Under the pieces are notes generated by a model. It was not told the DNA's origin, made no database searches, and saw nothing but the letters and a program-made list of their open reading frames with translations. A program made the position numbers and the translations under genes. From positions 62,001 to 126,000 of the IMG/VR virus record IMGVR_UViG_3300037725_000018: a stretch of DNA of 64,000 nt; one strand, 5' to 3'. Of this stretch, positions 3,309 to 62,252 are shown piece after piece (positions within the stretch are counted from its first letter, which is position 1; each line of letters opens with the position of its first letter). The DNA comes from a virus.

Positions 3309-3699
3309 CGATTGTTACCGTTGTTGTTTTGTCTTCTTGCTCAATTTTTGGACCGTTAAAAACTCTGTTAAAATACCGTTTATAAATCCGATTTCTTCTA
3401 GGTTCTGCCCGGTACTTCACGCCTCTCATGCCTGAACTTTGAAGGAAGTCCCGAATGATTTTCATATTTGTGCGAATGATCTTCATCGGGTTCCCTTCAC
3501 CTGTAAGGTCGTTAAAGCCCCCTTCTTCGGTTTTGAAGCTCCAGTCTACGTATCCCCCGCCTACGTCTTTAAATATCGTTTCATAGCTATTCTCGCCGCT
3601 CTCAAAGCCGAACACAATCGGCCACCTTGCCCGAACTTTACTGTATGGGTAGGTGTCTTTTAAAGCGGCTTCAGCTAGAAGGTCGTTGAAGCGTATCAT
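3289..3699 (-). CDS. MIRFNDLL-family protein, copy 1
   Basis: 136 residues. The start MIRFNDLLAEAAL matches the starts of the proteins at 9359-9829 and 9826-10329, and all three share an aromatic middle followed by a basic C-terminal stretch. The TGEGNPMKIIRTNMKIIRDF segment corresponds to TNEGNIFKVVGTVVSIVKDF in the third copy. The function is unknown. All copies sit among baseplate genes, so a virion or assembly role is inferred. Confidence 0.6.
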   Translation of the reverse strand: MIRFNDLLAEAALKDTYPYSKVRARWPIVFGFESGENSYETIFKDVGGGYVDWSFKTEEGGFNDLTGEGNPMKIIRTNMKIIRDFLQSSGMRGVKYRAEPRRNRIYKRYFNRVFNGPKIEQEDKTTTVTIDGSSNR

Positions 3700-27419: not shown

Positions 27420-27557
27420 AGATTGCCAATTTTAACGCCTTATTTGGCGAATGCGTTTAAGTGTTTTCTTCACCTTTAAAAGAACTTTCAATCAAGTCCT
27501 TCTTGGAATCGAACCAAGGTATCCGTATATTTAAGGATAAATTGCTGTAGGCAATCT
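27420..27557 (-). ncRNA. Permuted tRNA-like / Y-like RNA module C
   Basis: Minus-strand order: AGATTGCC, CTACAG bulge, CAATTT, a hairpin, T-arm CTTGG-TTCGATT-CCAAG, acceptor-like hairpin AAGGACT/AGTTCTT, further hairpins, AAATTG, GGCAATCT. The outer strands pair perfectly (8 bp) and CAATTT/AAATTG adds 6 bp, leaving only the CTACAG bulge. The 3' half of a tRNA therefore precedes its 5' strand. The D-arm part is degenerate. Y RNA-like architecture; see also 28024 and 29697. Confidence 0.5.
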
Positions 27558-27559
27558 TG

Positions 27560-27633
27560 CGATCCCTCCCGGATTCGAACCGGGGACCTCTTCCGTGACA
27601 GGGAAGCATCCTAAACCACTAGACCAAGGGACC
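27560..27633 (-). tRNA. tRNA-Asp(GTC), copy 1
   Basis: 74 bases; acceptor GGTCCCT/AGGGATC, anticodon stem CTTCC/GGAAG with loop CTGTCAC, T-loop TTCGAAT. No encoded CCA; discriminator G as expected for Asp. Confidence 0.92.
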
Positions 27634-27636
27634 GTT

Positions 27637-27819
27637 TCATTCTTCAATCGCTTCCATCCAAACGGACGGTTCGTTTACCGTAAACCGAACAACGGTTCCG
27701 TCTTCAAATTTTAATCGAACGATATTTCCAGAATTTGCAAACCGCTTTGTAATCGTTGTTGATTCAACGGTTTTTCCTTCCATCCAATCGGCAATTTCTT
27801 CTTGGTAGTTTGAAACCAT
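27637..27819 (-). CDS. Small protein of unknown function
   Basis: 60 residues from the ATG at 27819 (a TTG upstream is less likely). Helix then beta strands (NIVRLKFEDGTVVRFTVNEP). It ends 4 bases before tRNA-Asp. Confidence 0.45.
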   Translation of the reverse strand: MVSNYQEEIADWMEGKTVESTTITKRFANSGNIVRLKFEDGTVVRFTVNEPSVWMEAIEE

Positions 27820-27944
27820 CTTCTGTATATTTGTTAACAAAAGCGCAAAGAATTAGTTCCTACTTTATAGAACTTTAAAACAAACTGCTTTTTCTTTTTT
27901 TTGATATATGTAATCAAAGAGAAAAGTTGCTGTTAGCAGCTTTG

Positions 27945-28018
27945 TGTGGGTGGTGGGGATCGAACCCACAGCCTCCTGCTTGGAAGGCAGGCTATCTAGC
28001 CAATTGATATACACCCAC
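27945..28018 (-). tRNA. tRNA-Gly(TCC)
   Basis: 74 bases; acceptor GTGGGTG/CACCCAC, anticodon stem CCTGC/GCAGG with loop CTTCCAA, T-loop TTCGATC. No encoded CCA. It follows module B within a few bases. Confidence 0.92.
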
Positions 28019-28023
28019 AAAAC

Positions 28024-28140
28024 AGGCTACACAAGAAAAGTGTGCTACCATTACACCATACGGGTTAAACCCGCACTTGGATTCGAACCAAGACCTTCTG
28101 CTTATAGGCAGATAAAAGTATGTCTGCTGCAGGTAGCCCT
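28024..28140 (-). ncRNA. Permuted tRNA-like / Y-like RNA module B
   Basis: Order on the minus strand: AGGGCTAC, CTGCAGCAGA, hairpin TCTGC-CTATAA-GCAGA, T-arm CTTGG-TTCGAAT-CCAAG, acceptor strand TGCGGGT, TTA, acceptor strand ACCCGTA, D-arm GTGT-AATGGTA-GCAC, linker, GTAGCCT, then GTTTT. The two acceptor strands pair (7 bp) although the 3' strand comes first, and the ends pair (7 bp with one bulge). The anticodon-like loop has only 6 bases. This fits a YrlA-type RNA better than a tRNA. Confidence 0.6.
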
Positions 28141-28200
28141 ATGTTTATCGTACGTCTATATATAGACTTTAGAAGCACTTGGTTCCGTAAGTCTATATAT

Positions 28201-28467
28201 TCACTTGTTCTTAACTTGGACTACAACTTCGTCCGAGTTTGAAACATATGCGTAAATTGCATATCCTAAATTACCGAGACCGAATGTGAACCACACAGTT
28301 AGTATGAACCAGATGAAATGAACAAACCCGGACCCGTAACTGTTCTTTCTAACCCTAACGTGTTTATCACTTTGTTCGGATACGGAATAGCCTTGGATTT
28401 GGTAATCGTCTACTTTGTTGTGAAGTTCTTCTTCGGTAGAGACTTTTCTAATTCTAACGTTTGGCAT
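28201..28467 (-). CDS. Small membrane protein with cytoplasmic N-terminus
   Basis: 88 residues. A ~45-residue soluble part is followed by hydrophobic segments GFVHFIWFILTVWFTFGLGN and LGYAIYAYV. Similar two-segment proteins occur in many prokaryotes; no function is known. Confidence 0.5.
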   Translation of the reverse strand: MPNVRIRKVSTEEELHNKVDDYQIQGYSVSEQSDKHVRVRKNSYGSGFVHFIWFILTVWFTFGLGNLGYAIYAYVSNSDEVVVQVKNK

Positions 28468-28548
28468 AACTGTATTTTAGTTTATAAATGATAGGAAGTT
28501 AAAATTTAGATGAATATATTTGTTCATCTGTTACTTTTATGCTATTCG

Positions 28549-28621
28549 GGTGAGTATCCGGATTTGAACCGGAACTAAGGCGACCACAACGCCTCGTGCT
28601 ACCAATTACACCATACCCACC
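28549..28621 (-). tRNA. tRNA-His(GTG)
   Basis: 73 bases including G-1 opposite C73; acceptor GTGGGTA/TACTCAC, anticodon stem AGGCG/CGCCT with loop TTGTGGT, T-loop TTCAAAT. The encoded G-1:C73 pair is the His identity mark. Confidence 0.92.
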
Positions 28622-28679
28622 ATGTTTGGCGATTGTTTCACGCCAAACCGTCGCACGCAACCACGTGAACGGAAATATG

Positions 28680-28753
28680 TAACACGGGTGGGACTCGAAC
28701 CCACTAAAGACAGCTTGAAAGACTGCCTACGCGACCGCTTTGTATTCCGTGTC
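28680..28753 (-). tRNA. tRNA-Glu(TTC), copy 1
   Basis: 74 bases; acceptor GACACGG/CCGTGTT, loop CTTTCAA, T-loop TTCGAGT. Its 5' half through the D-arm is identical to copy 2 at 35378, showing duplication. Confidence 0.85.
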
Positions 28754-28761
28754 AAATATTG

Positions 28762-28834
28762 CACGGGTACTAGGACTTGCACCTAGATCCCCGGTTTTGG
28801 AGACCGGGATGTTTCTAAATTCCACCATACCCGT
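28762..28834 (-). tRNA. tRNA-Trp(CCA)
   Basis: 73 bases; acceptor ACGGGTA/TACCCGT, anticodon stem CCGGT/ACCGG with loop CTCCAAA, T-loop TGCAAGT, discriminator G. No encoded 3' CCA. Confidence 0.9.
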
Positions 28835-28849
28835 GTACCAATTCTAATT

Positions 28850-29155
28850 CTAATAGTCTTCGAAGCGGTCGTGAACCTTAATCGGATCATCGGAAGGAAA
28901 CCGCTTGTCGCTGGAATAAATGAAGTTTCCACCGAACATCGGTCCCCGCTTTCCATCCGGAGTTTCAACCGGAACTGCGTACGTGACCGTTTTACCGAAC
29001 ACGGTCTTTTCGGCAATCCGAACGGCAGGGGAATCTTCGGAAGGCTCAAACGGCCCTTCGGCGTTTACGATTACAACCGAGTCAACACGGCTCGTAACAC
29101 CGCCGTTGGTCGTGTCCGCTCCGTTTCGAGAATAAACGTTTGCGCGAATACCCAT
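28850..29155 (-). CDS. Protein of unknown function
   Basis: 101 residues with regular beta-strand content (RVDSVVIVNAEGPFEPSEDS). No motif is recognised. It ends 15 bases before tRNA-Trp. Confidence 0.5.
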   Translation of the reverse strand: MGIRANVYSRNGADTTNGGVTSRVDSVVIVNAEGPFEPSEDSPAVRIAEKTVFGKTVTYAVPVETPDGKRGPMFGGNFIYSSDKRFPSDDPIKVHDRFEDY

Positions 29156-29262
29156 AGCTTCAAGTGTCTTTGATTGGGGTTTCCTTTCTTAACTTCACTA
29201 TATTCAATGCAACGCAAAGGAATTGGTTCCGAAAGAAACGGCACTTCACAAAAGCTTCATAC

Positions 29263-29541
29263 TTACTCTGTGCTATCGGAAACTTCGTCAAACGCTTCAT
29301 CTAAACTCTGCTCTTCCGGAGAGGCAAAACCTTTTTCGTCGCCACTGCTTCTTACGTCCCGTTCAACGCGCCAAATGTCGTTTACAGGGTACTTATACAC
29401 TTTTCCGTTTAGGTCCTCGATGCAGTAAAAACTTCCTTTCTCGTACGTGTTAACCGCTCCGTGATAGACCTTTTGAAAAGAAGACTTCAATTGAACTTTT
29501 ACTGTATGTGTATCTTGTTTTTCGTAACTATGCTGACTCAT
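29263..29541 (-). CDS. Small acidic protein of unknown function
   Basis: 92 residues. A beta-barrel-like first half (GSFYCIEDLNGKVYKYPVND) and an acidic tail. It follows tRNA-Ala. The ~110 bases between it and the gene at 29155 hold no gene. Confidence 0.5.
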   Translation of the reverse strand: MSQHSYEKQDTHTVKVQLKSSFQKVYHGAVNTYEKGSFYCIEDLNGKVYKYPVNDIWRVERDVRSSGDEKGFASPEEQSLDEAFDEVSDSTE

Positions 29542-29568
29542 ATTGGCTTTTTACTACGGGTGAATGTG

Positions 29569-29641
29569 TGGAGCCAGTCGGATTCGAACCGACAACTTGA
29601 ACCGTGCAAAAGTTCCGCTCTACCGTTAGAGCTATGGCCCC
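29569..29641 (-). tRNA. tRNA-Ala(TGC), copy 1
   Basis: 73 bases; acceptor GGGGCCA/TGGCTCC with the G3-U70 Ala identity pair, anticodon loop TTTGCAC, T-loop TTCGAAT. No encoded CCA. Confidence 0.92.
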
Positions 29642-29696
29642 ATAAGTCAAGGGTGACTCTACCAAAGTCCATTTAATCGGCAACTTACCGACCCTT

Positions 29697-29829
29697 GAAA
29701 AATAAAACAGACTGCAATTGATTTAGTGCTCTGCCAGTTGAGCTACCCGTCCAAAAGCGGACGGGGTAGGACTCGAACCTACAACCTCTCCTTCCATGTA
29801 GGATATCAATGGATTGCTGTATGCAGCCT
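29697..29829 (-). ncRNA. Permuted tRNA-like / Y-like RNA module A
   Basis: Order on the minus strand: AGGCTGCA, TACAGCAATCC bulge, ATTGAT, hairpin ATCCT-ACATGGA-AGGAG, T-arm GTAGG-TTCGAGT-CCTAC, acceptor CCCGTCC, GCTTTT, acceptor GGACGGG, TA, D-arm GCTC-AACTGGCA-GAGC, ATCAAT, TGCAGTCT, then GTTTTATTTTT. Acceptor strands pair perfectly in permuted order. AGGCTGCA/TGCAGTCT (8 bp) and ATTGAT/ATCAAT (6 bp) close the module around a 5'-strand bulge. A U-rich tail follows. This is the clearest of three related modules. Confidence 0.65.
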
Positions 29830-31560: not shown

Positions 31561-32220
31561 TCACCCGTACTGGCTTACGCCTTCAAACATATCATACCGA
31601 AGCTTCGCATATGGAAGTGTGTCGATATCGGAAGGCTTAGGATGGGTGAACATGATTCCTTCTACATAGGCATTGTTTTCATGCGCCTCTTGAAAAGACG
31701 TTCCGTGAAACGTCGAATAAAACAGAGGAATCAACCCGTTTTCAAACCAGCTTTCAATTGCGTCGAACGTCTTCGGGTACTTTCCCCAACTTTCGTATTG
31801 AAGCTTTCTTCGGCTATAAGAGCTAAAAGGAATCCAGATGTGTTCGTTTAGGTCATAAGGGTTTCCTTGAACTTTCGGGCCAACGACTTCCCCAAAGTGT
31901 TGACCGTCTGTTAGCGTTTCAACATACCCACGATCTACAGAATTTCGAATTGCATCTGTGATCCTACGGTCCCCATGAAAAGCAGGAACCCGGTTCTTTC
32001 GGTTCATAACTTGAACAATTTGCCCGTTTTGAATCAAAACAGACACGTTTGTTCCGTCAATTTTTTCAATTGCCATTGTACGCGGATCATTAAAAACCCA
32101 ATCGTAGCTATTGCCGTTGTCGTCTGTGTTTACTTCGTCAACGACAAAGTATCCACCGTTTCGCTCTTCACGAACAAACGGCGAATGAATCTTCGGCATG
32201 TCTCGCATAAAAGACTGCAT
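31561..32220 (-). CDS. RNA ligase-family protein 1
   Basis: 219 residues from the ATG at 32220 (upstream lies tRNA-Ile). AIEKIDGTNVSV carries the nucleotidyl-accepting Lys53 of motif I (KxDG). EVVGPKVQGNPY and AYVEGIMFTHPKPSD with PYAKLRYDMF fit motifs III-V of the RNA ligase/mRNA-capping superfamily. These enzymes seal RNA after AMP transfer. A second ligase is at 59065. Amid 40 tRNAs, repair of cleaved tRNAs is the likely job. Confidence 0.8.
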   Translation of the reverse strand: MQSFMRDMPKIHSPFVREERNGGYFVVDEVNTDDNGNSYDWVFNDPRTMAIEKIDGTNVSVLIQNGQIVQVMNRKNRVPAFHGDRRITDAIRNSVDRGYVETLTDGQHFGEVVGPKVQGNPYDLNEHIWIPFSSYSRRKLQYESWGKYPKTFDAIESWFENGLIPLFYSTFHGTSFQEAHENNAYVEGIMFTHPKPSDIDTLPYAKLRYDMFEGVSQYG

Positions 32221-32269
32221 ATAGAATTGACGTAGCCTTTTAATTAAGCAAATATAAAGAGAGTTTTTG

Positions 32270-32343
32270 TTGTCCCGGTAGGATTTGAACCTACGGCACA
32301 CGATGTATCAGACCGATGCTCTACCAGACTGAGCTACGGGACA
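32270..32343 (-). tRNA. tRNA-Ile(GAT)
   Basis: 74 bases; acceptor TGTCCCG/CGGGACA, anticodon loop CTGATAC, T-loop TTCAAAT. The outermost anticodon-stem pair is a T-T mismatch. Confidence 0.85.
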
Positions 32344-35091: not shown

Positions 35092-35166
35092 AGCCGTGTG
35101 AGGGATTTGAACCCCCGGCATGCTCATTACAAGTGAGCTGCTCTGGCCAGACTGAGCTAACACGGC
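35092..35166 (-). tRNA. tRNA-Thr(TGT)
   Basis: 75 bases; acceptor GCCGTGT/ACACGGC, anticodon stem GCTCA/TGAGC with loop CTTGTAA, T-loop TTCAAAT, discriminator T. Confidence 0.92.
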
Positions 35167-35250
35167 GTGTTTGCGGGATTCGAACCCGCGATTCCTTTTC
35201 AGGCTGGTTTCCCGGCACCGCTTTGTTTTGCTATACCGAACACCGTCATG
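35167..35250 (-). pseudogene. Degenerate tRNA-like sequence
   Basis: A perfect T-arm GCGGG-TTCGAAT-CCCGC and an acceptor-like GTGTT/AACAC are present, with CTGAAAA (a Phe-type anticodon loop) lacking a matching stem. The segment ACAAAGCGGT is shared with the tRNA-Glu(TTC) D-arm. A chimeric or decayed tRNA is likely; a true tRNA-Phe is at 57516. Confidence 0.4.
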
Positions 35251-35291
35251 TCCGGTTTGCCTTCTACGTAGAAAACAACTTTCACATTTGG

Positions 35292-35702: not shown

Positions 35703-35856
35703 GAGAATGTTGCATCCACCACCTTAGCGGGATTCGAACCCGCGACTACCGCAATCTAGCGCGGCACTCTGACCTACCTGAGTTATAAGGTGTCACCAAC
35801 GGCGGTGGGATTCGAACCCACAGATACCGATCAAGCACCGTTACAGCAACATTCTC
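35703..35856 (-). ncRNA. Stem-closed module with two tRNA-like parts
   Basis: GAGAATGTTGC (35846-35856 on the minus strand) pairs perfectly with GCAACATTCTC (35703-35713), an 11-bp stem. Inside are a D-armless tRNA-like part (T-arm GTGGG-TTCGAAT-CCCAC, AACGGTG/CGCCGTT) and the odd tRNA 35719-35792. The layout resembles the permuted modules at 27.4-29.8 kb but without their TACAG bulge on this strand. Confidence 0.4.
35719..35792 (-). tRNA. tRNA-like gene with abnormal anticodon loop
   Basis: 74 bases; acceptor CACCTTA/TAAGGTG, D-arm and T-arm (GCGGG-TTCGAAT-CCCGC) are regular. The anticodon arm CCGC-GCTAGATT-GCGG gives an 8-base loop, or a 6-base loop if the closing G-T forms, never 7. The amino acid cannot be assigned; candidates are AGA (Ser) or a four-base anticodon. 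Confidence 0.5.
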
Positions 35857-36060
35857 TTATTATACATTGTCCTTGATTCCGGCCTACAAGGACTATAACA
35901 CACGCTTTATAAATCCGGACGTGTGGGTTCGGCTATAAACGCCTACGGGAAGTCACCGTGCTGGCGGTTTCCTGTCCCGCTCTTCTACAAAGGCCAGCAC
36001 CTTTGGAAGCAACCGTTCATAAGTATTAAAGAACGTCTTTCTCTCTTAACTTCACTACAG
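35857..36060 (-). ncRNA. Multi-hairpin RNA candidate, no gene
   Basis: No ORF. Minus-strand hairpins in order: CGTTC/GAACG, CAAAGG/CCTTTG, GCGG/CCGC, GGC/GCC, CACACG/CGTGTG and GTCCTTG/CAAGGAC. GTGCTGGC and GCCAGCAC can pair as a longer alternative. It ends at the 11-bp-closed module, so the two may be one RNA. Confidence 0.4.
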
Positions 36061-36192: not shown

Positions 36193-36296
36193 AGACATAA
36201 AGCATTAGGATTCGAACCCTGTTTTTTAAGGCTTCGGCACCACATTTTACGGATTCGAACCGCGCCGGGTGCGACCATACCAACCACTTTATGTCT
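36193..36296 (-). ncRNA. tRNA-like RNA closed by a 10-bp stem
   Basis: AGACATAAAG and CTTTATGTCT pair over 10 bases and enclose two TTCGAAT loops (GCGG/CCGT and AGGG/CCT stems) and a GCACC/GGTGC stem. No reading gives a normal cloverleaf. A TATATATAG box is 20-30 bases upstream. Either a Y-like RNA or two fused tRNA fragments. Confidence 0.4.
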
Positions 36297-36380
36297 CAAC
36301 AAGTCATGTTGGTTTTTATATATAGGCTCTAACCGATAAAGTTTCAATCCGTTTGGTTATGAAATTTTTACCTGTATGTG

Positions 36381-38853: not shown

Positions 38854-39104
38854 TTTTTCGAGTTCTTAAAAATTCGTTTCCAAACGTCTTCAATAAGCGG
38901 GGAAAGGTCTTCATTTTCTAAAACCGAAGTTACGTGACTAATAACCTCTCTTTCCCGGCACTTATCTTCAGTTTCAACACCGTTTTCTTCTTTGATTCTT
39001 TGTATTTCGTCTACAATAAGCTGGCGTTGATCTAGAAGCTTGACAATTCGTTGGTCTACATCGTCAATCTTTTCTCTGTGCTCTTCAATTCGGTTTTTAC
39101 TCAT
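38850..39104 (-). CDS. Chorismate mutase, AroQ type
   Basis: 84 residues, as in stand-alone AroQ domains. HREKIDDVDQRIVKLLDQRQ and IVDEIQRIKEENG with a later REREVISHV give the family order of catalytic Arg (about 10 and 27), Lys (about 38) and Arg/Glu (about 50). It converts chorismate to prephenate for Phe and Tyr synthesis. This is an unusual phage cargo. It lies between cytidine deaminase and a 2H phosphoesterase in one operon. Confidence 0.75.
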   Translation of the reverse strand: MSKNRIEEHREKIDDVDQRIVKLLDQRQLIVDEIQRIKEENGVETEDKCREREVISHVTSVLENEDLSPLIEDVWKRIFKNSKK

Positions 39105-39619
39105 ATTTGGCTATTTGACTTTTTAATGAGAACTTTATCTTTTGTGTCATATCTGTACGTTAGGGAGAAAGGCAAAATGGAAAATGTTCCTTGAAAATCA
39201 AGTTCATCGACGTATTTTTCGCCTCTTCCTTTTTTTAGGTACGCAATTGTAACGTGTGGATCATAGTCAAACCGGATTTCGTTTTTTCTTTGCTTACAAA
39301 AGCTATGCTCTTCTTTAAGGCGACCGGACTTAACGTTGAACTTTAAAACATCAAACCAAGGGTTTTCAAAAAGCCCAACCCCGGTAATTTTTAAATTTGG
39401 AAATTCAAACTTGTTTTCATTTTCAACGATCCAGTCTTTTTCATCATTTATCCAACCGTAAAAGACGGTACAATGTGGAAAAAGCTCGTATCCGTATGTG
39501 TCTGCTTTTCCGTATACGTCTTTTTCATCGACGGTTTGAAGAATCGAAAGCCAACCGTCCCACTTCAAATCATACATTAAACAGCCTTTTGGAGACCGAC
39601 GTTTTTCTTTGGTTTTCAT
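39101..39619 (-). CDS. 2H phosphoesterase-like protein (LigT/2'-5' ligase superfamily)
   Basis: 172 residues from the ATG at 39619 (further upstream it would overlap the next gene). Two H-x-T motifs, PHCTVFYG and PHVTIAYLKKG, are the catalytic pair of the 2H superfamily, which opens 2',3'-cyclic phosphates or hydrolyses 2'-5' linkages in RNA. With two RNA ligases in the window, an RNA-end healing role is plausible (inference). Confidence 0.75.
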   Translation of the reverse strand: MKTKEKRRSPKGCLMYDLKWDGWLSILQTVDEKDVYGKADTYGYELFPHCTVFYGWINDEKDWIVENENKFEFPNLKITGVGLFENPWFDVLKFNVKSGRLKEEHSFCKQRKNEIRFDYDPHVTIAYLKKGRGEKYVDELDFQGTFSILPFSLTYRYDTKDKVLIKKSNSQI

Positions 39620-39629
39620 GTTTTTATCT

Positions 39630-40289
39630 TTACTTTTGAACAGTTCGTTTAACCCTTTGATCTTTAGGCTTTTCAAGAAGATAAAAGGTTCCCTTCTCTC
39701 GAATAAAGTGCTTAGAGTGAAGTTCCATATTCACCCGGACAAAATCTTGACCTTCAACCTCTTCTTTCTCTGCCACTTCATCAACGGTTTCGCCGTGCGG
39801 TTTAAAATAGAAGATTTGAAATTCTTCGTTGGAAAGCTCTTCCTCGTCGTAAATGATTTGCGTTAGGTCGTCCATGTTGCTAATGTTGTACTTTTCGTCT
39901 ACGGCGTCGTATTGATCTCTAACCCGCTCTTGAAGATCATCAATCCAACTGCCAAGGTTGTTGATCTCTTTTACTTCTACCGGGTCTTGATCGGCAAACA
40001 CAAAAGAGCCAAAACAGGAAAAATCTGTTCCGTCCGGGTTCCCGTCTTCATCTACGGTGAGGTGCTCTTTCTCGGAAAGGCTAAAGACGTAAGCTTTTCC
40101 CTTGTCTTTATTTCTTTCTGCAAAATCTTCAATGTCTTCAACAATGTAGTTACGCGGAAGGTAATATTCATCACCTATCTTCACATAGTTTTGATCTTGG
40201 ACAACTTCAATGTCCATGTTCATCCCAAGATCGATAAGCATATCTTCATCTAAAGGATTTTGCTGCTGTTTTTCAATAAGCTCAAACAT
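39630..40289 (-). CDS. Acidic protein of unknown function
   Basis: 219 residues, Asp/Glu-rich, alpha/beta pattern (YVKIGDEYYLPRNYIVEDIE). It follows the Ro60-like gene in transcription order with a 47-base gap. No motif is recognised. Confidence 0.55.
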   Translation of the reverse strand: MFELIEKQQQNPLDEDMLIDLGMNMDIEVVQDQNYVKIGDEYYLPRNYIVEDIEDFAERNKDKGKAYVFSLSEKEHLTVDEDGNPDGTDFSCFGSFVFADQDPVEVKEINNLGSWIDDLQERVRDQYDAVDEKYNISNMDDLTQIIYDEEELSNEEFQIFYFKPHGETVDEVAEKEEVEGQDFVRVNMELHSKHFIREKGTFYLLEKPKDQRVKRTVQK

Positions 40290-40336: not shown

Positions 40337-41812
40337 TTACACGCGAACCATGTCGTAACGATCATCCATGATCGTATTCAACGTAATTTGAATCGGGGTA
40401 ATGTTTTGGCCGGAAAGAATGTTCTTCATAATTGACGGGCTAAATCCGCTCACAAGAGCAGCTCCGCTTTCGGAAAACCGAACCGGATTATTCCCGCTAT
40501 CATCTAGGTTCCAAAACACAATGTTTGGGGCTTCGTATCCAGCTTTTTCGTACTTCTCCCGGACCATGTTCATCGCAGACACCGAACGCCCATCAATATT
40601 GTATGAATCAAACTGCATGTCGGACATAACAAGAATTGTTTCCGGCATTTGGTTTTCGGGTACGTTTCTGCTTTTTGCAAAGGAAAGCAAGCTTTCAAAC
40701 ATCGCAGAAATGTTTGTATTCATTCCCCAAGAAATTTCGTTTAGGCTTTCTACCCGATCTCGGAGATTTGAGCCTCCGATTTCAACGAAACTTGGGTTTT
40801 CGCTAAACGTCACAACCCGGTTTTGAAATGGTCCGGTGTTGTGCTCTGCCGTGTAAAGTCCAAGCCCGATAGCAACGTCAATCGGCCTTGTGGACGAGTT
40901 AGAGTTATAGGAAGCAGTCATGCTTCCGGACACGTCAACAACGGATAGAACATTATCTTCCATCCACACAGGAAGGTTCTTCCACTGCCCTTCAAGTTGC
41001 TTTAGCTCTTTGTCTCCGATAGAAGAGCCGCTTCCAAAAGCATTTCGGGATTGAAGAATGGGCTTGACAATTTCATGTGGAAAAATCGCCCCCGCACTCA
41101 TTTTTGTGTCTGTAGATTCGTCAAGCACGTCGTCTAGGTAAGCTTCAAAACGATCTTCGTCGTTTCGAACAAATGCATTCCGATACTTCCGGATTGCTTG
41201 AGATGGAACAGACTCGTAATCAATGCTATCCCAATTTTCTTCGCACATGTCCTGTTCAACTACGTCACGAAGACCGGACACAAGCTTTCTGTACCGCTTA
41301 GAGCGGTTTCCTACACTTCCACTATCAAACATGTGGTCACGGAGATCCGTAAACATGTCGTGGTCGGACTTGCCTTCAGACGGTGCCCACTTCGCCGCAA
41401 GACTGTCTCCGGACTCCAAGGCTTTTTCATAAAAATTCAAAGCGTCTTCATACACTTCGGTTCCCTTCGTTGAGTGAAGAACATCGTCCCAACGCCCGTA
41501 TTCGGGAATTAGATCAAGGTTTTTTCGGGCCGTTTCTGGATCGTTCTCTGCAAGCCACCGGAACATAATCCGAAACGTTCGCCGCTCTCCTTGTCCCCCG
41601 CGAATGTCGCGGTTATAGAAAAGTGACCGAAGAGCACCTTCCTTCGTTTCTTGATACGCCTTTCGAAAAAGGTCTTCGATGTATTCCGGGTCTTTTGAGC
41701 GAGACGCGCCCATAGAGAAGAAAAGATCCACAAGGTCTTTGCCGCTTGTGGAATGGGTCTTCATCCCATTTTCGGTCGTCTCGTCGTAAATTCCGGTTAG
41801 AATCTTGTTCAT
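40337..41812 (-). CDS. Ro60/TROVE-DUF2828-like protein with vWA domain
   Basis: 491 residues. TENGMKTHSTSGKDLVDLFF and YNRDIRGGQGERRTFRIMF followed by IPEYGRWDDVLH mark the helical-repeat domain shared by DUF2828 and TROVE-like proteins. The C-terminal half is a von Willebrand A domain with MIDAS motif DVSGSM (about 295) and a later MSDMQFD. Ro60 proteins ring-bind Y RNAs and misfolded RNAs such as 5S rRNA; a Ro homologue is known in mycobacteriophage Bxz1. RNA binding here is inferred from fold resemblance and from the Y-like RNAs nearby. Confidence 0.65.
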   Translation of the reverse strand: MNKILTGIYDETTENGMKTHSTSGKDLVDLFFSMGASRSKDPEYIEDLFRKAYQETKEGALRSLFYNRDIRGGQGERRTFRIMFRWLAENDPETARKNLDLIPEYGRWDDVLHSTKGTEVYEDALNFYEKALESGDSLAAKWAPSEGKSDHDMFTDLRDHMFDSGSVGNRSKRYRKLVSGLRDVVEQDMCEENWDSIDYESVPSQAIRKYRNAFVRNDEDRFEAYLDDVLDESTDTKMSAGAIFPHEIVKPILQSRNAFGSGSSIGDKELKQLEGQWKNLPVWMEDNVLSVVDVSGSMTASYNSNSSTRPIDVAIGLGLYTAEHNTGPFQNRVVTFSENPSFVEIGGSNLRDRVESLNEISWGMNTNISAMFESLLSFAKSRNVPENQMPETILVMSDMQFDSYNIDGRSVSAMNMVREKYEKAGYEAPNIVFWNLDDSGNNPVRFSESGAALVSGFSPSIMKNILSGQNITPIQITLNTIMDDRYDMVRV

Positions 41813-45819: not shown

Positions 45820-45862
45820 TAGCCCCGGTGGGGATCGAACCCACACTGAACAGTTTTTAATG
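45820..45862 (-). pseudogene. Orphan tRNA 3' half
   Basis: A T-arm GTGGG-TTCGATC-CCCAC with acceptor strand CGGGGCT and discriminator A, but no 5' half beside it. Its acceptor strand pairs over 7 positions (two wobbles) with the orphan 5' half at 46628-46664. Confidence 0.5.
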
Positions 45863-50809: not shown

Positions 50810-50896
50810 CGGAGAGCGGAGGCATCGAACCTCAAGATTTTTCAATCTCCATCTGATTTCGAATCAGCGATAGGTGCCAAACCTACGTCACTCTCC
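50810..50896 (-). tRNA. tRNA-Ser(CGA)
   Basis: 87 bases with long variable arm; acceptor GGAGAGT/GCTCTCC, anticodon stem CTGA/TCAG with loop TTCGAAA, T-loop TTCGATG, discriminator G. Confidence 0.88.
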
Positions 50897-50900
50897 ACAG

Positions 50901-61169: not shown

Positions 61170-62252
61170 TTAGTTGTTGTTCCACGTTCGACGTTCAAGC
61201 CCGTAACGGTCCACAAACTTTTGAACGTAGTATCGGGAAACGGATTCGGGAATGATTCCACGGTCCCGAAGTGCCCGGTGCGTTGCAGACACGTTGCCGT
61301 TGTTTTCGTTTAGAACCTCTCTCGCAACGTCTACGTCAAGGTCTTCCATAATGTCATACTCTTCCCCGCCCGTAGACGAACTTTCGTTAGAAGCGTTCTC
61401 TGAGGCTTGAGTGGACTCTCCATTTTCGGACGTTCCGTTAAGAAGGTCTTCAATGGAATCGAAGTTATTTTTCTTTTCGTTTCTCTTCCGCTCTTTTTCG
61501 GCAAATTCACGGGCTTCGTCGTGGGTTTTCTTTTTGTGCTCGTCAAACTCGATGCTACTGTTCGTGATTTGAAAATACAGCCGTTCGTTTCCGTTTCCAC
61601 GCCGATTTTTGTCAAACATCATATACCGTTCTTCCCCATCCCACCGAAGCATAAGGCTTGCGGTGATAAGGTGCTTTAGCATGTTTGACCCGGTAAATTC
61701 ACCGGACTTGTTTACCTGTTGGATAAGGCCGAAAGAAGTGTAGTACACATCCCCGTCTACTTCCACCCCTTCGGTCATGTCGTACATGAGGTTGATCAGA
61801 TTAAGAATCGTTGACTTTTTTGTGGACGTGTTCATCGAATAGGCAAATTCAAGAAACGCGGCCCAACTGTCAACGACCACATAATCATACCCTTTTTGAA
61901 GCTCTTCTTCAAAGTCTTCAACCGGGTTACTTCCGGTTCGTGTATCCACGTACCAAACAGGAATGTCCGCAAACTCCGGAAACCTACGTGTCATGTATGC
62001 CACGTCATTCTTCCGCATTTCAGCAGATACAAACAGGACATTATATCCCGCTTCATTCATGTTCGATAGCATGTCCATCGTAAACGTAGACTTTCCGATT
62101 CCCGGATCACCGAAAATCATCGTAACCGTTCCACGGGAAAGCCCACCATCTGCGGACAGGAAATCATCCAGAACATCATGCCCGGTCGAAAGAGGCTCCC
62201 AAAGCTTAGGATCAATCGTTTCATTCGAAATCTTCGTCGTCTCTACAGACAT
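61170..62252 (-). CDS. RecA/RadA-fold ATPase with C-terminal helix-turn-helix
   Basis: 360 residues. MIFGDPGIGKSTFT (Walker A at 48-56), VLFVSAEM and YDYVVVDSW (Walker B near 125) fit RadA/KaiC/DnaB-type ATPases. After an acidic linker (about 260-310), AREVLNENNGNVSATHRALR is a Fis-type helix-turn-helix. In large phages such proteins act in recombination or helicase loading. No zinc finger or Lon-like part of RadA is present. Confidence 0.75.
   Translation of the reverse strand: MSVETTKISNETIDPKLWEPLSTGHDVLDDFLSADGGLSRGTVTMIFGDPGIGKSTFTMDMLSNMNEAGYNVLFVSAEMRKNDVAYMTRRFPEFADIPVWYVDTRTGSNPVEDFEEELQKGYDYVVVDSWAAFLEFAYSMNTSTKKSTILNLINLMYDMTEGVEVDGDVYYTSFGLIQQVNKSGEFTGSNMLKHLITASLMLRWDGEERYMMFDKNRRGNGNERLYFQITNSSIEFDEHKKKTHDEAREFAEKERKRNEKKNNFDSIEDLLNGTSENGESTQASENASNESSSTGGEEYDIMEDLDVDVAREVLNENNGNVSATHRALRDRGIIPESVSRYYVQKFVDRYGLERRTWNNN

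Follow-up and report, generated by a model that had tools for sequence, protein, structure and literature searches.

Four RNA elements on the minus strand of a 64,000-nucleotide (nt) stretch of viral DNA, here called the window (positions 62001–126000 of the 223-kb IMG/VR virus record IMGVR_UViG_3300037725_000018), are very probably phage Y RNAs, in which an outer stem and an asymmetric NNN-CAGCAA bulge form the predicted docking site for a Ro60-fold ring of the DUF2828/DUF7788 family. The elements have the architecture of Y RNAs, their outer stems covary, they share a conserved motif, and they are linked to and co-occur with genes for a protein with a predicted Ro60 fold. Chen and colleagues are said to have found Y RNAs in more than 250 bacterial and phage species. 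For the question of why phages retain Ro60-like proteins, hundreds of cultured phages now offer the putative RNA half of such a system, whose motif is amenable to mutation.

Three of the elements (Y RNAs 1–3; Table 1) carry a tRNA-like head and lie amid the 40 tRNA genes that ARAGORN and the Rfam tRNA model call in the window. These tRNAs cover all 20 amino acids, and a transfer-messenger RNA (tmRNA) lies at the window's far end. Read 5′ to 3′, each headed element opens with one outer strand and a stretch of variable sequence; a T-arm whose loop has TTCGA then leads into the 3′ strand of the acceptor, and beyond a short linker the complementary strand of the acceptor is followed by a D-arm and the second outer strand, which closes the structure. 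In all four RNAs, including the headless minimal one, a terminal stem of 7–8 base pairs (bp) joins the 5′ and 3′ ends. A preliminary description of the window had proposed three permuted tRNA-like RNAs, naming no strand; they are present, on the minus strand, with the outer ends paired over 7–8 bp and acceptor linkers of 3–8 nt as it had stated. Its bounds of 27420–27557 were kept, and those of 28024–28140 and 29697–29829 were refined to 28024–28139 and 29709–29829. The 7-bp acceptor pairing that it gave for all three is found in Y RNAs 2 and 3, whereas Y RNA 1 has 8 bp. The minimal RNA at 27882–27942 had escaped that description.

Y RNA 3 has an 8-bp outer stem, a 7-bp acceptor, a 6-nt linker and a D-arm of GCTC-AACTGGCA-GAGC. 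Y RNA 2 has a 7-bp outer stem with one G-U pair, a 7-bp acceptor, a 3-nt linker and a D-arm of GTGT-AATGGTA-GCAC. Y RNA 1 has an outer stem of 8 bp, an acceptor-like stem, also of 8 bp, that closes a 6-nt loop, and a D-like hairpin; its minimum free energy (MFE) structure contains all its named stems. Gaps of only 2–5 nt separate Y RNAs from tRNA-Gly and tRNA-Asp, which suggests that the Y RNAs are released together with the neighbouring tRNAs from one tRNA/Y RNA precursor cut by tRNA-processing enzymes.

Because the Rfam YrlA model at a loose cut-off matched 13 of 14 control genomes, we built our own covariance models: R1 from 34 minimal RNAs, among them the minimal RNA of the window, and R2 from 26 tRNA-like RNAs, none of them from the window. 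R2 ranked the three headed elements above all else in the window, with 90.7 bits (E-value (E) = 3.5e-16) for Y RNA 3, 63.6 bits (E = 1.3e-10) for Y RNA 2 and 44.3 bits (E = 1.2e-6) for Y RNA 1. The next score was 32.3 bits, at 35119–35243; this match, taken to be a tRNA-like gene that had gone uncalled, with tRNA-Thr after it, was not counted as a Y RNA. The minimal RNA scored 45.4 bits with R1, of whose training set it is part, and 24.6 bits (E = 0.013) with R2. In the Rfam search of the window, YrlA matched 29699–29822 at 40.5 bits (E = 8.8e-7), against a gathering score of 69, and Y RNAs 1 and 2 had no match at all. Two of the three headed elements were recovered by a strict search for the permuted core, which missed the one with a degenerate D-arm; 100 dinucleotide-shuffled versions of the window gave no match of comparable quality.

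Scanned for the permuted core, 28 stretches (26 from phages with the protein and two from the window's own record) yielded 20 matches, and their shuffles none. A side-by-side reading of these matches revealed a signature consisting of the 7–8-bp outer stem, about 3 nt and CAGCAA. The TACAG bulge singled out in the preliminary description is there, but as only part of this longer signature, which ends in CAGCAA or CAGCAG. A search of noncoding DNA for the stem with CAGCAA returned 99 matches, compared with 18–33 for ten other motifs, and exposed a second, minimal form of 46–80 nt with no tRNA head; the same scan without the noncoding filter was too noisy (72 matches, versus 49–63 in shuffles). 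The signature, the minimal form and the DUF2828 partner appear to be new; a literature search of incomplete coverage returned no paper that connects DUF2828 to Y RNAs or reports the CAGCAA motif.

Covariation in homologues, whose absence the preliminary description had named as a refutation, is strong. In the outer stem of the 34 minimal RNAs, 82 cells are changed on both sides, against 22.5 under shuffling (0 of 500 shuffles). The outer stem of the R1 set is 85% paired, compared with 57% when shuffled and with 38% and 53% after a slide by one column. For the four-helix structure of the bacterial set, the covariation score was 0.493 versus 0.188 (0 of 500), in an alignment that had been fitted to the model. 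A finder for the tRNA-like form gave 34 matches, as opposed to 1 in shuffled sequence, and a D-arm with GG was present in 29 of 33, although the search did not require it.

Homologues of the window protein are found in 682 phage records. A search for related loci from the single window protein, or from the window's KaiC/RecA-like protein as a control set, returned no loci. R1 was also run on 80 IMG/VR loci that surround DUF2828 genes and had supplied none of its training sequences; it gave 73 matches at E ≤ 0.1, distributed over 49 loci. All 73 share the strand of the gene, and 41 lie within 500 nt of it. Since the 80 include near-duplicates (L091/L092/L093/L100, L147/L149 and L113/L114), the independent events are fewer than those counted. 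The R2 matches in these loci are likewise all on the gene strand, although 12 of the 26 R2 training sequences came from the same loci. Related RNAs are present in 21 of 22 DUF2828 phage records, most of which had supplied training sequences, and the sole record without a match belongs to Prevotella phage Lak-B2, whose homologue is the most divergent among those of full length. Phage CBB, which was chosen as a presumed negative and contributed no training sequences, carries both the protein and the RNAs. Among four tRNA-rich phages without the DUF2828 protein (T5, T4, phiCbK and XacN1), none had a convincing RNA match, phiCbK giving one partial match to tandem tRNAs.

Bacterial DUF2828 genes have one to four such RNAs directly upstream. 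R2 gave 75 matches at E ≤ 0.01 in bacterial genomes, every one on the gene strand, and CAGCAA is exact in 18 of the 24 bacterial RNAs inspected, the remainder having mostly GCAA. At the gathering score, Rfam had no match in the eight bacterial DUF2828 loci scanned. Genes of the DUF2828/DUF7788 Ro60 fold were seen in at least 80 bacterial genome assemblies (L177–L256), many from Lachnospiraceae and Oscillospiraceae and commonly with tandem Y RNAs upstream; some of these contigs may be phage.

The presumed partner in the window is encoded at 40337–41812. Its Pfam matches are DUF2828, DUF7788 (vWA-type) and a weak VWA_2, with none to TROVE (PF05731), and PHROG 850 ('RNA-binding protein') also matches it. 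An AlphaFold model with a 71-sequence alignment had a predicted local distance difference test (pLDDT) score of 89.5; a single-sequence model was unusable (pLDDT 39). Foldseek returned seven significant PDB matches of the former, all of them Ro60, Rsr or TROVE (E = 5e-8 to 7e-6), and the predicted model combines the helical-repeat domain and the vWA domain of the fold of Ro60, a lupus antigen in humans. The residues of the metal-ion-dependent adhesion site (MIDAS), D293-x-S295-x-S297, T366 and D398, are invariant across the 71 sequences. A profile search of PDB sequences reached TROVE proteins only at E = 1.3. The predicted model resembles Ro60 and Rsr (1yvr, 2nvo and 9kop) in its overall fold (template modelling (TM) score 0.46–0.63) and in a vWA domain with MIDAS residues, and differs from them in its low sequence identity (11–17%) and in lacking a Pfam TROVE match. 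The preliminary description had placed a Ro60-like protein at 40337; the likeness extends to the predicted fold, but the family is DUF2828/DUF7788 and not TROVE. In agreement with this, the homologue gp53 of phage LeBron is annotated 'Ro-like', and CKA15_055, that of Listeria phage CKA15, has an HHpred match to Deinococcus radiodurans Rsr (PMC12282133). Overexpressed gp53 is toxic (PMC13148394), which would fit an ungated protein, although other explanations exist.

Like YrlA (RF02553; Chen et al. 2014; Wang et al. 2018), the headed window RNAs have a permuted T-arm/acceptor/D-arm module closed at the acceptor and a terminal stem; in both branches, RNAs are found beside Ro60-type genes and can occur in tandem copies. 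As a canonical YrlA reference, we used three bacterial genomes with strong YrlA matches and scanned the neighbouring proteins in two of them. The YrlA loci in these two adjoin RtcB or RtcR genes and vWA_Ro60 proteins, one of them also TROVE, and the locus L262 holds four YrlA copies in tandem. The canonical RNAs have GAAUGC, U(C/U)GUC and, in slightly varying form, GAACUAC in common and contain no CAGCAA. By contrast, the window RNAs have NNN-CAGCAA instead of these motifs, fall below the Rfam gathering threshold of 69 bits, are partnered with DUF2828/DUF7788 rather than TROVE/vWA_Ro60, and belong to a branch that includes minimal headless members. Chiefly because the head is common whereas the Ro-facing stem and the protein family are both different, we place the window RNAs outside RF02553 and regard them as Y RNAs in kind. 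Judged from sequence, their architecture and genomic partner mark them as Y RNAs of a separate branch from that of YrlA. The YrlA-like architecture recognized in the preliminary description, with its permuted head and outer stem, is upheld, but strict RF02553 membership is not, given the other Ro-stem signature.

Mycobacteriophage Y RNAs are mentioned, by way of a citation of Chen et al. 2014, in PMC12282133, which itself proposes Y RNAs at CKA15_059–061 of phage CKA15. This phage resembles the window in having Y RNAs near a Ro-like gene and, in CKA15_055, a homologue of the window protein. The CAGCAA RNAs, however, are not at the proposed position; three of them lie 74 nt upstream of the Rsr-like CKA15_055 (L088, 3431–3695), at the predicted sites 3431–3488, 3519–3578 and 3589–3695. 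As the coordinates differ, we rejected CKA15_059–061 as expression evidence for the CAGCAA branch. The preliminary description had considered several Y-like RNAs in one phage locus to be new, which was too strong: several per phage are the rule in this branch, bacteria carry tandem sets too, and phage Y RNAs had already been reported or suspected.

In the Ro60 systems that have been studied, Y RNAs cover the RNA-binding surface of the ring. In the window system, tRNA-processing enzymes would excise the RNAs from the tRNA/Y RNA transcript, and the outer stem and CAGCAA bulge would attach them to the Ro60-type ring. Once bound, they would cover its RNA-binding surface and gate its access to damaged or misfolded RNA. 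The three heads, with an elbow and an acceptor arm but neither an anticodon arm nor a free 3′ acceptor end, would be closed tRNA mimics, and the minimal RNA the docking stem alone. A head may tether a tRNA-handling protein (a modification enzyme, exonuclease or ligase), for which the Deinococcus Rsr–Y RNA–PNPase particle (RYPER) provides a model, its Ro60 ring and tRNA-like Y RNA head tethering a partner. The partner enzyme of RYPER is PNPase, whereas that of the window system is hypothetical. Such a particle would serve RNA quality control in a phage with about 40 tRNAs, a tmRNA and an RNA ligase.

Several observations weigh against this interpretation. The RNAs of the CAGCAA branch are known here from sequence alone, and abundant noncoding transcripts near such a protein have been reported only at CKA15_059–061, away from the predicted CAGCAA sites. 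The window RNAs are 10.5 kb away from the protein gene, the D-arm of Y RNA 1 is degenerate and lacks GG, and the unconstrained MFE structure of Y RNA 2 favours a non-consensus fold by 2.5 kcal/mol. A PHROG or Pfam name is no proof of function. The downstream role, gating and tethering, is borrowed from Deinococcus and Salmonella; it is the weaker part of the proposal, and we advance it tentatively.

The heads might instead be tRNA decoys that titrate out the host's tRNA-targeting nucleases or modification enzymes, independently of the Ro60-like protein. They do retain the tRNA elbow and acceptor without the anticodon arm, in a window that encodes a predicted RNA ligase besides about 40 tRNAs, and competitive inhibition has been proposed as one possible role of Salmonella YrlA (PMC7790460). 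We nevertheless consider decoys unlikely, because the headless minimal members have the same stem and motif, and because the RNAs track the DUF2828 gene, the four tRNA-rich phages without the protein having none. It is far less probable that the elements are circularly permuted tRNA genes, cut and religated into working tRNAs, even though T-arm, acceptor and D-arm stand in permuted order, an RNA ligase is predicted nearby and a hairpin precedes the T-arm in Y RNA 2. That hairpin has a 6-nt loop, and the ends are closed not by an anticodon arm but by the outer stem with CAGCAA, of freely variable sequence. The encoded tRNAs already serve all 20 amino acids, and, in line with the preliminary description, neither ARAGORN nor the Rfam tRNA model calls a tRNA at the three sites; as the elements have no anticodon arm and are not detected by tRNA models, this reading was rejected. 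Tandem tRNA genes or remnants imitating a permuted module yield weak YrlA and R2 matches, but we rejected such an artefact (for Y RNAs 2 and 3 it already stands refuted) as next to impossible, given acceptor strands that pair mutually across 3–8 nt, a covarying outer stem that closes the whole, scores well above the tandem-tRNA background and 34 matches against 1 in shuffles.

Beyond the window, we favour, with some reserve, a second Ro60–Y RNA lineage, in which DUF2828/DUF7788 Ro60-fold proteins pair with CAGCAA-docking Y RNAs, tRNA-headed and minimal, across phages of many hosts and bacteria such as Lachnospiraceae and Chloroflexi, the phages often having several between tRNA genes. This lineage would have remained largely unrecognised because Pfam TROVE and Rfam YrlA both fail to reach it. 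The contrast between the two lineages (TROVE with GAAUGC/CUUGUC, DUF2828 with CAGCAA) can reveal how a Ro ring recognizes its Y RNA; in the minimal members, the docking function stands apart from the tRNA-like head. An RNA-binding role also becomes likely for two Pfam domains of 'unknown function' and for PHROG 850.

Table 1 Y RNA elements, adjoining tRNA genes and presumed protein partner, in window coordinates.
Feature	Position	Strand	Parts and remarks
Y RNA 3, tRNA-like	29709–29829	minus	outer stem 29822–29829/29709–29716; CAGCAA 29814–29819
Y RNA 3 inner stem, ATTGAT/ATCAAT	29805–29810/29717–29722	minus	
Y RNA 3 head		minus	T-arm 29766–29782; acceptor 29759–29765/29746–29752; D-arm 29728–29743
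Y RNA 2, tRNA-like	28024–28139	minus	outer stem 28133–28139/28024–28030; CAGCAG 28124–28129
Y RNA 2 head		minus	T-arm 28076–28092; acceptor 28069–28075/28059–28065; D-arm 28042–28056
Y RNA 2 extra hairpin	28097–28112	minus	6-nt loop; precedes T-arm
Y RNA 1, degenerate tRNA-like	27420–27557	minus	outer stem 27550–27557/27420–27427; CAGCAA 27542–27547
Y RNA 1 head		minus	T-arm 27502–27518; acceptor-like stem 27494–27501/27480–27487; D-like hairpin 27459–27475
Minimal Y RNA, no tRNA head	27882–27942	minus	outer stem 27935–27942/27882–27889; CAGCAA 27927–27932; A-rich inner stem
tRNA-Gly	27945–28018	minus	5 nt after Y RNA 2, 2 nt before minimal Y RNA
tRNA-Asp	27560–27633	minus	ends 2 nt ahead of Y RNA 1 5′ end
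Ro60-fold protein, 491 amino acids, presumed partner	40337–41812	minus	Pfam DUF2828 + DUF7788

The tRNA-rich region of the window also encodes the predicted RNA ligase (31561–32301, minus strand) and a protein with a weak 2H-phosphoesterase/RNA-ligase match (39101–39676, minus strand), both in keeping with RNA upkeep during infection. Orphan TTCGA T-arm-like sequences occur outside the called tRNAs on the minus strand, at 35165–35260, 35795–35880, 36195–36330, 45820–45860 and 50815–50900, and are possibly uncalled or decayed tRNAs; at 35719–35792, on the same strand, ARAGORN calls a tRNA with an undefined two-base anticodon. In the public annotation of Citrobacter phage Ci1 (L012, 6982–7095), a 114-nt 'tRNA-Pseudo-AAC' near the DUF2828 gene overlaps an R2 match (record positions 77135–77247), and in that of Klebsiella phage KP2025 (L010, 4911–5342) the DUF2828 gene is overlapped at its start by a 'tRNA-Arg' of 432 nt.

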